Below are positions 29,078 to 34,263 of a stretch of DNA of 64,000 nt, piece after piece. Source of the DNA: Cyanobium sp. Aljojuca 7A6 (GTDB taxonomy: Bacteria > Cyanobacteriota > Cyanobacteriia > PCC-6307 > Cyanobiaceae). The stretch covers positions 124,001 through 188,000 of the forward strand of contig NZ_JAGQCY010000002.1 in the NCBI RefSeq assembly GCF_024346455.1, given 5' to 3'. Positions within the stretch are counted from its first letter, which is position 1. Each line of letters starts with the position of its first letter. The notes beneath the pieces are model-generated. The model saw only the letters and a list, made by a program, of their open reading frames with translations, was not told where the DNA came from and searched no databases. A program made the translations under genes and the position numbers.

Positions 29078-29317
29078 TCAGCTGAGGGCGCGCAACGAGG
29101 CAATCGCCGTCAGGCTGATCAGCAGCAACGGGGTGCCAGGTTCGGTGCTCATGGCCAGGAAATGGCTGTCCTGCCAGCGGATGATGCCATCACACTCCTG
29201 GCCGGTCAGCAGCACCACGTTCACGGGAGTGCGGATGCGGATCAGCTCCTGAACATGGCGCACACTGGGCAGGGTCGTATCGAGCCTGGGCCCCCGGCGT
29301 TCAAAGAAACTCTGCAT
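29078..29317 (-). CDS. hfq: Cyanobacterial-type Hfq (Sm-like protein)
   Basis: A 79-residue Sm-fold protein matching the divergent Hfq of cyanobacteria: LPSVRHVQELIRIRTPVNVV, then LLTGQECDGIIRWQDSHFL as the Sm1 region. The Sm2 region reads LLLISLTAIASL and lacks the Lys-His pair of enterobacterial Hfq. In Synechocystis the homologue affects motility through pilus proteins rather than acting as a general sRNA chaperone. The ATG at 29317 gives a short, non-conserved leader. It sits between leuS (same strand) and the divergent dapF, a placement seen in other cyanobacteria. Confidence 0.87.
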   Translation of the reverse strand: MQSFFERRGPRLDTTLPSVRHVQELIRIRTPVNVVLLTGQECDGIIRWQDSHFLAMSTEPGTPLLLISLTAIASLRALS

Positions 29318-29360
29318 AGGATCGACCCCAACCTCCAGGACTTACGGAACGGTGCTCCAG

Positions 29361-30434
29361 GTGCTCCAATTCAGCAAATATCAGGGTCTTGGGAATGACT
29401 TCTTACTGCTTGACGGGCGCAGCTTAGAGGATCCTGAGGACCTGTTCGGCTTGACCCCTGAGCTGGTGCAACGGCTCTGTGACCGGCGCTTCGGGGTCGG
29501 TGGCGATGGCGTGATCCTGGCCTTGCCGCCCCGGGAGGGCGGCGAACTGCGGATGCGGATCTTCAACGCCGATGGCACCGAGCCCGAGATGTGCGGCAAC
29601 GGCATCCGCTGTCTGGCCCGCTTCCTGGCCGACAGCGACGGTGACGTCGCCCCTCGCCGCTGGGAGGTCGAGACCCTGGCCGGTCGCATCGTGCCGGCCC
29701 TGGCCGAGGACGGGCGCATCCGCGTTGACATGGGCGCCCCGTTCCTGACGCCGGAGACGATTCCCACCGGACTGGCCATGGGGGTGGAGGGGCTGCCGGT
29801 TGGGATGCTGGAAGTGCTGGGGGAGCCCATGGCCGTGGCGGCTGCCGGCATGGGCAATCCCCACGCCGTGGTGCCGGTGGATGACGTGGCAGCCATCGAT
29901 CTGGAGACCCTGGGCGCCGCCCTGGAGGTGCACGAGGCCTTCCCGGCCCGGACCAACGTCCATTTCGTTGAGGTGATCGCCCCCAACCATCTGGTGATGC
30001 GGGTGTGGGAGCGGGGAGCCGGGCCCACCCTGGCCTGTGGCACCGGTGCCTGCGCCACCCTGGTGGCCTGCCACCTGCTGGGCCTGGCCGACCGCCAGGC
30101 CCGGCTCGATCTGCCCGGGGGGCCCCTGGAGATCGACTGGGAGGAGGCCAGCGGCCACGTCTTCATGACCGGCCCGGCCGAGGCGGTGTTCGACGGCGTG
30201 GTGGCCCCCTCAATGTTCGGGGTTGCCCTGGAGGCACGTCCCACCATTGATTGCGCGACGGTGTGCGTCAACGGCTGCCTCCGTCCCGAGGCCTGCGCCA
30301 GCGCCGAAGCCCGCGCCCGCGTCACGGCCCTGCTGGAGGGCCGCTCCCTCGATGATCTGGTGACCCTGGCTGGCGAGTCCCTGGAATCCCGCACCCGGGG
30401 CCGCCTCTGCCGTGATGAACCCGCCGCGCCCTGA
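29361..30434 (+). CDS. dapF: Diaminopimelate epimerase with Cys-rich C-terminal extension
   Basis: Converts LL- to meso-diaminopimelate for lysine and peptidoglycan. The two catalytic Cys are Cys78 (EPEMCGNGIRC) and Cys226 (TLACGTGA). The catalytic fold ends near residue 280 (FMTGPAEAVFDGVV), the normal size for DapF, but the frame continues for about 77 more residues. That tail carries Cys298, Cys302, Cys306, Cys312 and Cys350, with SLDDLVTLAGESLESR between. The GTG at 29361 gives MLQFSKYQG; another GTG lies three codons upstream. The 3' end overlaps the cysteine desulfurase start by 20 bp. Confidence 0.93.
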   Translation: MLQFSKYQGLGNDFLLLDGRSLEDPEDLFGLTPELVQRLCDRRFGVGGDGVILALPPREGGELRMRIFNADGTEPEMCGNGIRCLARFLADSDGDVAPRRWEVETLAGRIVPALAEDGRIRVDMGAPFLTPETIPTGLAMGVEGLPVGMLEVLGEPMAVAAAGMGNPHAVVPVDDVAAIDLETLGAALEVHEAFPARTNVHFVEVIAPNHLVMRVWERGAGPTLACGTGACATLVACHLLGLADRQARLDLPGGPLEIDWEEASGHVFMTGPAEAVFDGVVAPSMFGVALEARPTIDCATVCVNGCLRPEACASAEARARVTALLEGRSLDDLVTLAGESLESRTRGRLCRDEPAAP

Positions 30435-31629
30435 TATCCCTGGGACGGCAGGCCCCACCCGGGCGGTGTACCTGGACGCCTGCGCCACCAGCCCCCCGGC
30501 GCCGGAAGTGCTCGACGCCATGGACCGTGCCCACCGGGAGGCCTGGGCCAATCCCTCCAGCCTGCACGGCTTCGGCCTGGCGGCGGCGGACCGGCTGGAG
30601 CGCGACCGCCAGGCCCTGGCGTCACGCCTGGGCTGCGGCAGCGACGAGCTGGTGCTTGTATCGGGTGGCAGTGAAGCGATCCATGCCGCCCTGATCGGTT
30701 GCGCCGGCTGCCTGGAGCCCGGCCGGGTGCTGCTCTCGGCGGTGGAACATCCCGCCAGCTATGCCGCTGCCGACGCCATGGTGCGACGAGGTTGGCAGCG
30801 GCAGCTCCTGCCGGTGGATCGCCGTGGGGTGGTGGACCTGGAGGCCCTCGAGGCGCTTCTGCTGCCGCCGACCCGTCTGGTGTCGATCCTCTGGGGCCAG
30901 AGCGAGGTGGGCACGCTCCAGCCGATCACCCGCATCGGCGAGCTCTGCCGCCGGGCTGGCGTGTTGCTGCATGTGGACGGCGTTCAGGTGGTGGGTCACC
31001 AAAGCCTCGATTTCAGCCAGCTGCCGGTGGACCTGCTCAGCTGCGCGGCCCACAAGCTGCAGGGCCCCCGCGGTGTTGGCGCCCTGCTGGTGCGGCGCGG
31101 GCTCCGGCTGGACCCCCTGATCGGCGGAGCTCAGGAAGCGGGCCGCCGCGGCGGTACCGAGCCCGTGGCCCTGGTGGCGGGGTTTGCGGCGGCCCTGGCG
31201 CTGGCCGAGCAGCGTCTGGCGGCCCACGGCGGGCAAGACCCGATAAGGCCCCTGCGTGATCGGCTTCTGGAGGCACTGTTGCCACTCGAGGGGGTGGGCC
31301 TCAGCGGGCCAACACCGGACGACCCCTGCGGGCGCCTGCCCCATCACATCAGCCTGCTGGTGGCTGGCCCGGCGGGACGATCACTGAGCGGACGCCGGCT
31401 GGTGCGGGAGCTGGCCCGGCGGGGTTACGCCGTCAGCAGTGGATCCGCCTGCACCAGTGGCGGGACGGCGGCGGCCAGTGCCGTGCTGCTCGCCATGGGC
31501 TACAACCCCGAGGAGGCCGCCAGCGGCCTGCGACTCAGCCTGGGCCCCTGGCTTACCCCGGCAGATCTGGCCGACCTCCCGGCGGCCCTGGAGGAAGCAC
31601 GCCGCAGTGTCGCCGCAGCGCCTGGGTAG
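30415..31629 (+). CDS. Cysteine desulfurase (NifS/IscS family)
   Basis: A 404-residue PLP enzyme that removes sulfur from cysteine for Fe-S clusters and thiolation. PLP Lys214 lies in CAAHKLQGPRG, and the persulfide Cys346 in SSGSACTSG. The N-terminal motif YLDACATSPP matches the family. The closest pattern is the IscS/NifS group rather than SufS. ATG at 30415 is chosen; GTG one codon earlier is also possible. It starts inside the end of dapF, whose tail carries five Cys residues, a coincidence worth noting. Confidence 0.93.
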   Translation: MNPPRPDIPGTAGPTRAVYLDACATSPPAPEVLDAMDRAHREAWANPSSLHGFGLAAADRLERDRQALASRLGCGSDELVLVSGGSEAIHAALIGCAGCLEPGRVLLSAVEHPASYAAADAMVRRGWQRQLLPVDRRGVVDLEALEALLLPPTRLVSILWGQSEVGTLQPITRIGELCRRAGVLLHVDGVQVVGHQSLDFSQLPVDLLSCAAHKLQGPRGVGALLVRRGLRLDPLIGGAQEAGRRGGTEPVALVAGFAAALALAEQRLAAHGGQDPIRPLRDRLLEALLPLEGVGLSGPTPDDPCGRLPHHISLLVAGPAGRSLSGRRLVRELARRGYAVSSGSACTSGGTAAASAVLLAMGYNPEEAASGLRLSLGPWLTPADLADLPAALEEARRSVAAAPG

Positions 31630-31655: not shown

Positions 31656-32345
31656 ATGCTGCCTGCTGATCTGCGCACCGCCGAAGCCGAAGCCCGCGAG
31701 GCCCTGCAGGCGGCCCTGGCGTCCGGATCCGGAGGCCGGTGGACCGTGGAGTTCAGCTTCGAAGGCTTACGACTGCTGCCCGTGGTGCTGCGCCTGCTGG
31801 AAGGGCTGCTGACGGAGCGGCCCGCGTTGCGGCTGTTGTTCCCGGATGCCGGTGCCACGGCCCTGGCCCGCCGTGATGCTGCTGCCCTCGCCGATCGCAT
31901 CGGCAGTTTCTCCGACCAGCGCCGGCTCCAGCAGCAGGAACCCTCCCGGGGGGTGCTGCTGCTGGTGGGGGCCAGCCAGGCGGAATACGACTTGGTGGAA
32001 GCGGTGTGCGGCGGCCACGGTGACAGCGTGGTGCTGATCAATCCATCACTGGAAGATGCCGCCATCGGCATCGGCAGCGTGGCGCGCCAGCGCCGCAAGG
32101 GTTTCCTGGCCGGCTGGCGGGCCGCCTATGCCCTGCTGCCCCAGTCCGACCGCGCCCTGCGCTGCGCCTACCCGGCCGAGTGGGAGCTCTACCGGCTTGA
32201 CCCCGACGGTTATCGGCTGGCCGGGCGCTTCGAGCAGAAACCCGATGCCGAGCAGCAGGAGCTGGCCCTCAGCGGCGGGCAGGAGCCTGGCCTGGGGAGC
32301 AACCTGCGGGCCCTTGGCCAGATGATCGAAGACCTGCAGAACTGA
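31656..32345 (+). CDS. DUF1995 family protein
   Basis: A 229-residue protein of the DUF1995 family, found in cyanobacteria and plastids. The N terminus MLPADLRTAEAEAREALQAA, then LRLLFPDAGATALARRD and GVLLLVGASQAEYDLVEAVC are typical; a late VLINPSLEDAAIGIG segment follows. The fold looks Rossmann-like with no clear catalytic motif, and the function is not established. It lies 26 bp after the desulfurase gene and shares its direction. Confidence 0.82.
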   Translation: MLPADLRTAEAEAREALQAALASGSGGRWTVEFSFEGLRLLPVVLRLLEGLLTERPALRLLFPDAGATALARRDAAALADRIGSFSDQRRLQQQEPSRGVLLLVGASQAEYDLVEAVCGGHGDSVVLINPSLEDAAIGIGSVARQRRKGFLAGWRAAYALLPQSDRALRCAYPAEWELYRLDPDGYRLAGRFEQKPDAEQQELALSGGQEPGLGSNLRALGQMIEDLQN

Positions 32346-32408
32346 CCCGCCGGCCCGGCTGGTGCATCCCGGAAAGGCTGCGTACACTTCGCTGGCTTTC
32401 AGGTGCCC

Positions 32409-32933
32409 ATGCCCAGCGATTCGCCCCGCTCCCGTTCCTGGAGTCTCATCGACCTCGGTGCTGCCGTCGCGGCGCTGCTGGCGATCGGGGGCGTGATCTG
32501 GAGTCCCCGTCTGAGCGGGGCCGTGGCCCAGGCGACCGGGGCGCTTGAGCCCGTCACTGTGATGGTGGATGTGCGTGGTGCCCCAGCCGCCTCCCCCCTT
32601 GAGCTCCTGCAACAGATCCGCCAGGAGGCCAAGGTGGCGATCGTGATTCGCAACCAGCCCCACGGCAGCGTGGCTGTGAAGCAGATCATTCCCTTTGACC
32701 GGATCATCTCCACCCTCACCCCAGACGGGAAAGTGGTGAGTGCTCCCGATCCCAACCAGAAGACCTTCAGCACCTTTGATGGGCGTTTCGTCCTTGAAGG
32801 CCAGGGCCGTCGCACCGGCGGCGGGGTTGTCTTCGGCAACCAAACGATCAAGATCGGTGCCCCGGTGGAGCTGGAGGGGACCAACTTCCGCTTCAACGGC
32901 ACCGTCACGGATCTGAAACTCGGAGCCTCCTGA
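32409..32933 (+). CDS. DUF4330 domain membrane-anchored protein
   Basis: A 174-residue protein with one N-terminal transmembrane helix (LIDLGAAVAALLAIGGVIW) followed by a soluble domain that matches DUF4330 (VTVMVDVRGAPAASP, FNGTVTDLKL). The soluble part probably faces the periplasm or lumen. Its function is unknown. ATG 32409 is chosen; GTG 32403 adds two residues. It ends 1 bp before the dacB start, so the two are likely co-translated. Confidence 0.8.
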   Translation: MPSDSPRSRSWSLIDLGAAVAALLAIGGVIWSPRLSGAVAQATGALEPVTVMVDVRGAPAASPLELLQQIRQEAKVAIVIRNQPHGSVAVKQIIPFDRIISTLTPDGKVVSAPDPNQKTFSTFDGRFVLEGQGRRTGGGVVFGNQTIKIGAPVELEGTNFRFNGTVTDLKLGAS

Positions 32934-32934
32934 G

Positions 32935-34263
32935 ATGACTGCGCCTGTCCGCCGATCCCCTGGGTTCCGTCGCCCCCACCGCCCGCTGAGGGCGGCAGCC
33001 ATCCTGCTGATGGCCGGGAGCACCAGTCCCCTGGGCACGGCGGCCTGGGCCCAGAACGCCCCGGCGCTGCCCTCACCCAGGGCCCTGCGCCCCCTGCCGA
33101 TGGCCGCCTTGCCGGAGGCGCCGCCCCCGGTGGGGATGCCGCGGTTGGCCGGGGAGGTCAGCTGTCCGTTGCTGCAACGTCAGGTGGCCCAGGCCCTGGG
33201 GTCGGAACAGTCCCGCTGGAGCGTCAGCGTCGCCGACGGCCGTGGACGTCTGCTGGCCGATGTCAACGGGCGCCTGCCCAGGGTGCCGGCTTCCAACCAG
33301 AAACTGATCAGCACCGCCTTCGCCCTCGACCGGCTCGGCCCCGACTACCGGCTCACCACCCAGTTGTGGCGTCTCCAGGACGGCACCCTGCGCATGGTCG
33401 GCCAAGGGGATCCCGATCTGGCCCTGCCCCAGTTGAAGCGTTTTGCCCAGCTGGCCCTGGCGACCGGCAGCCCCGTGCGGCTGGAGCTGGCGGAGGAAGC
33501 TCCCCAGAACTGGTGGCCGAGTGGCTGGCATCCAGGGGATCGCGTCTACGCCTACGGCGCCCCGATCACCCGGCTGGCCATCACCAGCAACGCCATCGAT
33601 GAGGCGGTGAGCAATCCCGCCTCGCGGTTGCAGACCCTTTTGCGCCGCTCCATGACCCAGAGCGGCGGCCAGCAGGTGCAGCTGGCCCTCGTCTCGGCGC
33701 GGCAGCCGCTCCCCAGCGACGCCGTCCTGCTGCATGAGGAGCCCTCCACTTCAATGCACGGCCTGCTCAGCCTGGCCAACACCGAAAGCCACAACTTCAC
33801 CTCCGAAGTGTTGCTGCGACAGGCCGCCGGCACCTGGGACCTGGCCGAAGCCAGTCGCCGTACGTTTCTCTGGCTGAACGACCAGGGCTTGCCGATGGAG
33901 GGTGTCCGGATCGCCGACGGCAGCGGCTTGGATCGCGCCAATCGACTCACCAGCCGTTTCCTGGTGGCCCTGCTGCTGCGCATGGATCACCATCCCTACT
34001 CCAGGGATTACCTCAGTTCCATGGCCATCGCCGGTCGGCGGGGCACGCTGCGCAATCTCTACAAGGGCACCAGCCTGGACGGCCAGTTCTTCGCCAAGAC
34101 CGGCACTCTGACGGGCGTGCGCTCGATCAGCGGCGTTCTCCAGACCACGGATGGCCCCCGCTACGTGAGCGCCGTGTCCGCCGGGGCGGGGGCTCCTAAC
34201 ACCACCATCGGCCGTGTGCTGCGCCAGATCCAGTCCGCGGGGGCCTGTCAACCCGCGTTCTGA
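32935..34263 (+). CDS. dacB: D-alanyl-D-alanine carboxypeptidase/endopeptidase (S13, PBP4-type)
   Basis: A 442-residue low-molecular-weight penicillin-binding protein. An N-terminal signal peptide ends near AAWAQNAPA. The S13 motifs are present: SxxK at Ser120-Lys123 (PASNQKLIST), DGSGLDRANR as the second element, and KTG at 388-390 (FAKTGTL). It trims or cleaves cross-links of peptidoglycan in the periplasm. It closes the operon that begins with dapF, so meso-DAP supply and wall processing are at the two ends of one unit. The family name dacB is used by analogy. Confidence 0.93.
   Translation: MTAPVRRSPGFRRPHRPLRAAAILLMAGSTSPLGTAAWAQNAPALPSPRALRPLPMAALPEAPPPVGMPRLAGEVSCPLLQRQVAQALGSEQSRWSVSVADGRGRLLADVNGRLPRVPASNQKLISTAFALDRLGPDYRLTTQLWRLQDGTLRMVGQGDPDLALPQLKRFAQLALATGSPVRLELAEEAPQNWWPSGWHPGDRVYAYGAPITRLAITSNAIDEAVSNPASRLQTLLRRSMTQSGGQQVQLALVSARQPLPSDAVLLHEEPSTSMHGLLSLANTESHNFTSEVLLRQAAGTWDLAEASRRTFLWLNDQGLPMEGVRIADGSGLDRANRLTSRFLVALLLRMDHHPYSRDYLSSMAIAGRRGTLRNLYKGTSLDGQFFAKTGTLTGVRSISGVLQTTDGPRYVSAVSAGAGAPNTTIGRVLRQIQSAGACQPAF

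Follow-up and report, generated by a model that had tools for sequence, protein, structure and literature searches.

A conserved domain fusion joins DapF to an uncharacterised cyanobacterial small protein

The stretch of DNA analysed here, 64,000 nucleotides in all (the window), contains a dapF gene fused to a C-terminal domain at 29352–30434 on the forward strand (360 codons plus stop; TIGR00652, E 3e-83). The frame is continuous from GTG 29352 to TGA 30432–30434, with no internal stop, and the whole-protein score of 279.4 bits lies above the curated TIGR00652 cut-off of 114.65. In the NCBIfam profile search, TIGR00652 matches residues 6–284 of 360 and leaves about 76 extra residues. The DapF catalytic part accordingly occupies 29361–30203 (+) and also matches PF01678. 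We read both candidate catalytic Cys in the frame, one in an MCGNG and one in an ACGTG context; they are probably the catalytic pair, by analogy with Cys75 and Cys224 of the Anabaena enzyme as given in the excerpts of that report available to us (PMC12039745). The same excerpts assign residues 1–123 and 269–280 of the Anabaena structure to the N-terminal domain. The window protein thus has the catalytic motifs of ordinary DapF (TIGR00652, PF01678) and is matched over residues 6–284, but where ordinary DapF stops it continues into a linker and then a helix domain with four Cys, so the Cys-rich extension described in the initial annotation is real. A frameshift or an assembly artefact was considered and rejected, since the same frame is open in other genomes. 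At the start of dapF there is a short direct repeat (GTGCTCCA twice, 29352–29368), which gives two in-frame GTG candidates three codons apart. The alternative start, GTG 29361, yields 357 residues and matches the Cys numbering of the initial annotation. Upstream of dapF and divergent from it lies an Hfq-related gene (29078–29317, reverse strand; PF21979 Hfq_1, E 7e-18).

Behind dapF lies an aminotransferase class V gene (30412–31629, +; PF00266, E 5e-55), called a cysteine desulfurase in the initial annotation and cysteine-desulfurase-like here. Its candidate starts are GTG 30412 and ATG 30415, and with either one the frame overlaps the end of the tail, in line with the earlier claim that the next gene begins inside the tail codons. 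It is followed by a DUF1995 gene (31656–32345, +), the next member of a block that is common to the window's family and to two other families (f1, f10 and f11, respectively). After DUF1995, in the same direction, come a DUF4330 gene and a D-Ala-D-Ala carboxypeptidase S13 gene (32403–34263).

The tail itself has three parts. The linker (30204–30245, +) is short in the window; measured from one fixed cut, linkers in 26 same-genus rows range from 19 to 88 residues, and that of the window is the shortest. Next comes the four-Cys knuckle IDCATVCVNGCLRPEAC (30246–30296, +), with the spacing C-x3-C-x3-C-x5-C, and then two predicted helices, AEARARVTALLEG and LDDLVTLAGESLESRTRGRLCR (30303–30413, +). 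The five Cys codons of the tail begin at 30252, 30264, 30276, 30294 and 30408 (residues 298, 302, 306, 312 and 350 in the 357-residue numbering). We found the clustered four Cys in 30 of 30 tails, from the window's genome and 29 same-genus genomes (L001–L030). Of these tails 26 could be cut by script, and in them neither the Gly ahead of the third Cys nor the S-L-D-x-L core of the helix varies; the script passes over rows without the Cys pattern, and none was dropped for that reason. The knuckle Cys and Gly are likewise invariant in alignments A1 (22 rows) and A3 (12 rows), as in the 26 genus rows. From the first Cys to the helix the length is constant, except for a 2-residue insertion directly after the fourth Cys in two loci (L007 and L067). 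The initial annotation had emphasised five Cys: the four clustered ones are indeed conserved, but the fifth (350) is retained in few relatives, is Ser or another residue in most, and is incidental.

AlphaFold models built from a 12-row alignment agree, at modest confidence, with the earlier suggestion of a separate small domain containing a helix. For the tail alone (mean pLDDT 68) helices are predicted at 5–10, 22–34 and 37–58, and the full-length model (mean pLDDT 64) has tail helices at 312–322 and 327–349. In the latter, pLDDT falls below 50 in the linker and knuckle (271–306), in the last 18 residues and in most of the first 59. The models support a helical module, not a detailed fold, and they say little on its placement against DapF. 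Foldseek with the tail model returned no match, and a PDB search with the A1 profile gave four chance-level matches (best E 0.18) and no credible relative. No Pfam or NCBIfam profile matches the window tail up to E 5. The linker of the window contains an ATG, which among the loci read is common only to its near twin L061. Among 71 fused loci, in which some genomes recur, 26 have a Met somewhere in the linker, at differing places. No start is conserved across these 71 loci, and we therefore reject independent initiation of translation within the linker.

The fusion is widespread among relatives of the window's genome. Queries with the whole protein and with the tail alone against 60 relatives located the tail in 34 of the 36 genomes of the same genus, in frames of at least 293 codons; 29 of those 34, together with the window's genome, were read as DapF frames running into the tail. 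The two same-genus misses are a genome in which the dapF match covers only residues 3–144 (G012) and one in which no dapF was found (G036). All 11 named GTDB loci are fused (Cyanobium, Synechococcus, Vulcanococcus, Aphanothece saxicola and two uncultured cyanobacteria), a set that overlaps the 60 relatives, several of its loci having the same tail as a genome among them. At the level of families, the fusion is present in f1, with its named relatives Cyanobium, Synechococcus and Vulcanococcus, and in one f10 genome. DapF in f1 is often not the plain 280-residue enzyme. We profiled 250 f1 genomes, of which 148 were matched; in 146 of the 148 the profile matches once only, and these 146 thus show no additional free copy. 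Our searches of open-licence PMC papers turned up no description of the fusion.

Outside f1 the tail has free-standing homologues, a family of small Cys4 proteins that we define here by profile A1. Of 17 loci read in other families, 15 are separate genes in 15 families, one is fused (G045, f10) and one is a gene adjacent to dapF (G046, f11). The free homologues in the 15 families are about 60–83 residues long and are encoded apart from dapF. The 17 loci share an [IV][DN]C-like start, a Gly before the third Cys, a Pro after the fourth and an SLDxMLEIA-like helix, and the Pro follows the fourth Cys in 15 of 15 separate copies. In A1, C4, C8, G11, C12 and C18 are invariant in 22 of 22 rows, the window tail included, and D37 and A43 are conserved in at least 90% of rows, in a helix with an SLDxM/L core. 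The profile matches 199 of 242 sampled genomes of class Cyanobacteriia and misses 43; among the matches listed, the only long-frame match outside f1 is the f10 fusion. A draw across the phylum gave matches in 68 of 194 genomes, all of the same class among the matches listed. These counts point to a small-protein family whose members have no Pfam or NCBIfam match: up to E 5, Pfam gave nothing for the tail-like part in two small proteins and the f10 fusion, and NCBIfam gave nothing for the two small proteins. Nine of the 15 separate copies have a PPKWVFPEDG-like C-terminal end that is absent from the window tail and from 41 f1 loci; we do not count this end as a defining feature because it is also missing from the other six separate copies (L074, L076, L081, L083, L087 and L088). 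Around 16 copies (15 separate, one adjacent) there is no recurrent neighbour gene, which indicates that gene order does not link the older job of the protein to dapF. No tail homologue was confirmed on viral contigs, and none was found in plasmids and phages with one free homologue as the query.

We compared the tail with known small proteins, and it is neither CP12 nor NblD. CP12 and NblD are, like the tail, small and cyanobacterial with four conserved Cys, arranged in two pairs according to the excerpts of the reports available to us (PMC7760959, PMC5126843). In these excerpts CP12 has two Cys at each end (PMC7760959), whereas the four Cys of the tail lie together within 15 residues before the helix. 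NblD was rejected, as it is described there as beginning with a CPVC pair (C-x2-C) as against C-x3-C in the tail (PMC5126843). NirP1 and PirN were rejected as well; in the available parts of their reports the former has one invariant Cys with three Trp and the latter is a DUF1830 protein (PMC10907346, PMC13205821). The unnamed Cys4 small protein, on the other hand, has the same four Cys, the Gly before the third and the SLDxM/L-like helix of the window tail, and differs in its occurrence: the other families that we read have it as a free protein, f1 and f10 as a fused domain.

Family f11 (G046 and G285; 2.7–2.8 Mb) has the small gene directly behind dapF and in the same frame, with a junction that consists of TAG or TAA, then four codons, then ATG. 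The f10 copy is fused and retains a GPKWVIPEGG end. The order dapF–tail–desulfurase–DUF1995 is present in both f10 and f11. All 34 f1 loci tested have a desulfurase homologue behind dapF, and 23 of the 34 also have DUF1995, near which many of the loci end. None of 32 dapF loci from other families carries the tail, and a desulfurase is absent nearby save for one weak desulfurase-like match (E 3e-15). In 31 of these 32 (the end of L148 was unreadable by script) DapF ends at most 14 residues past the cut used. The initial annotation had raised the possibility of a formerly separate gene fused to dapF, with a search by the tail alone for stand-alone homologues and for recurrence as the check. Both were found, and the free homologues in 15 families, the one-stop neighbour in f11 and the recurrence of the fusion in the genus uphold that origin. 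DapFs ending at residue 280, with no conservation of the tail Cys, had been named as evidence against it; DapFs of other families do end near 280, and the tail Cys are conserved in the genus and in the free homologues.

These arrangements suggest that the small-protein gene came to adjoin dapF in an ancestor of f1, f10 and f11, and that the in-frame stop between the two genes later disappeared, by which the small protein would have become the C-terminal domain of DapF. A single relocation rests on the shared gene order; the DapF tree does not join f10 or f11 to f1. In that tree (64 rows, midpoint root; L016, L018, L028 and L134 are left out, their DapF frame having been missed by the script) f10 groups with f18 (86/68) and f11 with f23 (99/79), in a region where few forks are well supported. 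The fusion may have occurred once, with f11 splitting it later, or twice.

Within f1 the tail has also been dismantled. The profile match covers the Cys part in 125 of the 148 matched genomes (start at profile position 2–4) and starts at position 16 or later in the other 23. We read 18 of these 23 directly and found the four-Cys cluster in none; a Cys near the site of the last Cys of the cluster is kept in three (L095, L096 and L113). All 18 keep a helix like FLxxTSLDxMLxLAxxSLxxRT, a segment that resembles the second helix of the window tail. Mapped on the DapF tree, the Cys-less state takes six changes, of which starred branches force three or more, and one clear pair sets L101, with Cys4, beside L094, with none (100/99). 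The Cys half has been lost more than once within f1 with the helix staying, which speaks against the Cys being all that the tail is for. A further 102 of the 250 genomes have no profile match, and 17 of the 20 listed are at most 2.0 Mb. Among those 20, dapF is present in 19 and a usable locus in 14. Nine of the 14 DapFs end normally (L125, L127, L128 and L130–L135), each in a genome no larger than 2.0 Mb, and five run on further and lack the domain (L111, L112, L120, L126 and L129). Loss of the Cys half or of the whole tail means that the tail is dispensable within f1. The DapFs of L111 (G073) and L112 (G101) are close to each other, one with a long domain-less tail and the other ending early in the linker; these ends are vestigial tails.

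The explanation we favour, with slightly better than an even chance of being right, is that a free cyanobacterial small protein was relocated next to dapF, was fused to it by loss of the stop and is now a tethered module, for which DapF is mainly the carrier. The tail would keep its own older job in this tethered form. An own older role, with DapF carrying, is suggested by the lack of a recurrent neighbour, by the free copies encoded apart from dapF and by the persistence of DapF without a tail. The Cys4 motif, compact and with a Pro behind its fourth Cys, resembles a metal site (Zn or 4Fe-4S). Binding of metal or sulfur by the four clustered Cys, which had been proposed earlier, is plausible from the sequence, and the knuckle, N-terminal to the helical segment, would probably hold a metal (Zn or an Fe-S cluster). 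The helical segment may bind a partner; it looks like the partner-binding part because it outlasts the Cys. DapF as the carrier would provide joint expression, via a linker of variable length. The natural series of free, adjacent, fused, Cys-less and lost states allows the roles of the Cys and of the helix to be asked separately.

Among the alternatives to the tethered module, a redox connection with DapF deserves to be taken seriously, even if it is unlikely. The small protein could be a general cyanobacterial partner of DapF, for example a thiol/redox guard of its catalytic Cys, and the fusion would make this interaction permanent. Fusion and adjacency unite exactly DapF and the small protein, the tail is thiol rich, and a disulfide linking the two catalytic Cys acts as a switch in DapF of Corynebacterium (PMC5296763). 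However, the small gene is not near dapF in the 32 loci of other families, several f1 lineages have lost the Cys and kept the helix, and small genomes retain a DapF without the tail. Somewhat less likely again is that the Cys4 protein of most Cyanobacteriia is a general redox- or metal-state partner controlling DapF or another target, a link that the fusion would bring to light, and that its stepwise loss (Cys4 plus helix, then helix only, then none) follows genome streamlining.

Next among the rivals, and in our view improbable, is a sulfur connection with the enzyme whose gene comes after the tail. The tail could be a sulfur or Fe-S helper, acting as acceptor or scaffold for the desulfurase-like enzyme; a homologue of its gene comes next in f1, f10 and f11, and the window's gene overlaps the tail. 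Four Cys followed by a Pro, as in all 15 separate copies, resemble Fe-S ligand sets. The free copies, however, have no recurrent neighbour, and the desulfurase-like gene follows dapF in 30 of 30 loci of the loss survey, including those in which the Cys or the whole tail are gone.

The least probable reading is that loss of the stop left a read-through extension with no function, which is tolerated while it decays. This would account for the graded loss (no Cys part in 23 of 148 matched genomes, vestiges or normal ends in others) and for the missing PPKWVFPEDG-like end in f1, but is at odds with the four Cys kept in every genus tail despite a freely changing linker, and with the constraint on both the domain and the Cys-less helix. 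Over 26 genus rows the median pairwise dN/dS, from values that are mutually non-independent, is 0.18 for the DapF core and 0.33 for the domain (325 pairs), and 0.54 for the linker (309 pairs); these rows are 26 of 30 loci, L016, L018, L024 and L028 being out because the script missed their DapF frame. The ratios indicate that the domain is constrained, but less than DapF itself. The helix, too, appears to stay constrained without the Cys: pooled pN/pS in two groups of Cys-less helices is 0.16 (six loci) and 0.33 (seven loci), for stretches picked by motif and hence biased towards conservation. One genome (G157) has two dapF matches on different contigs (C7 and C28), and in both the tail match leaves out the Cys part.
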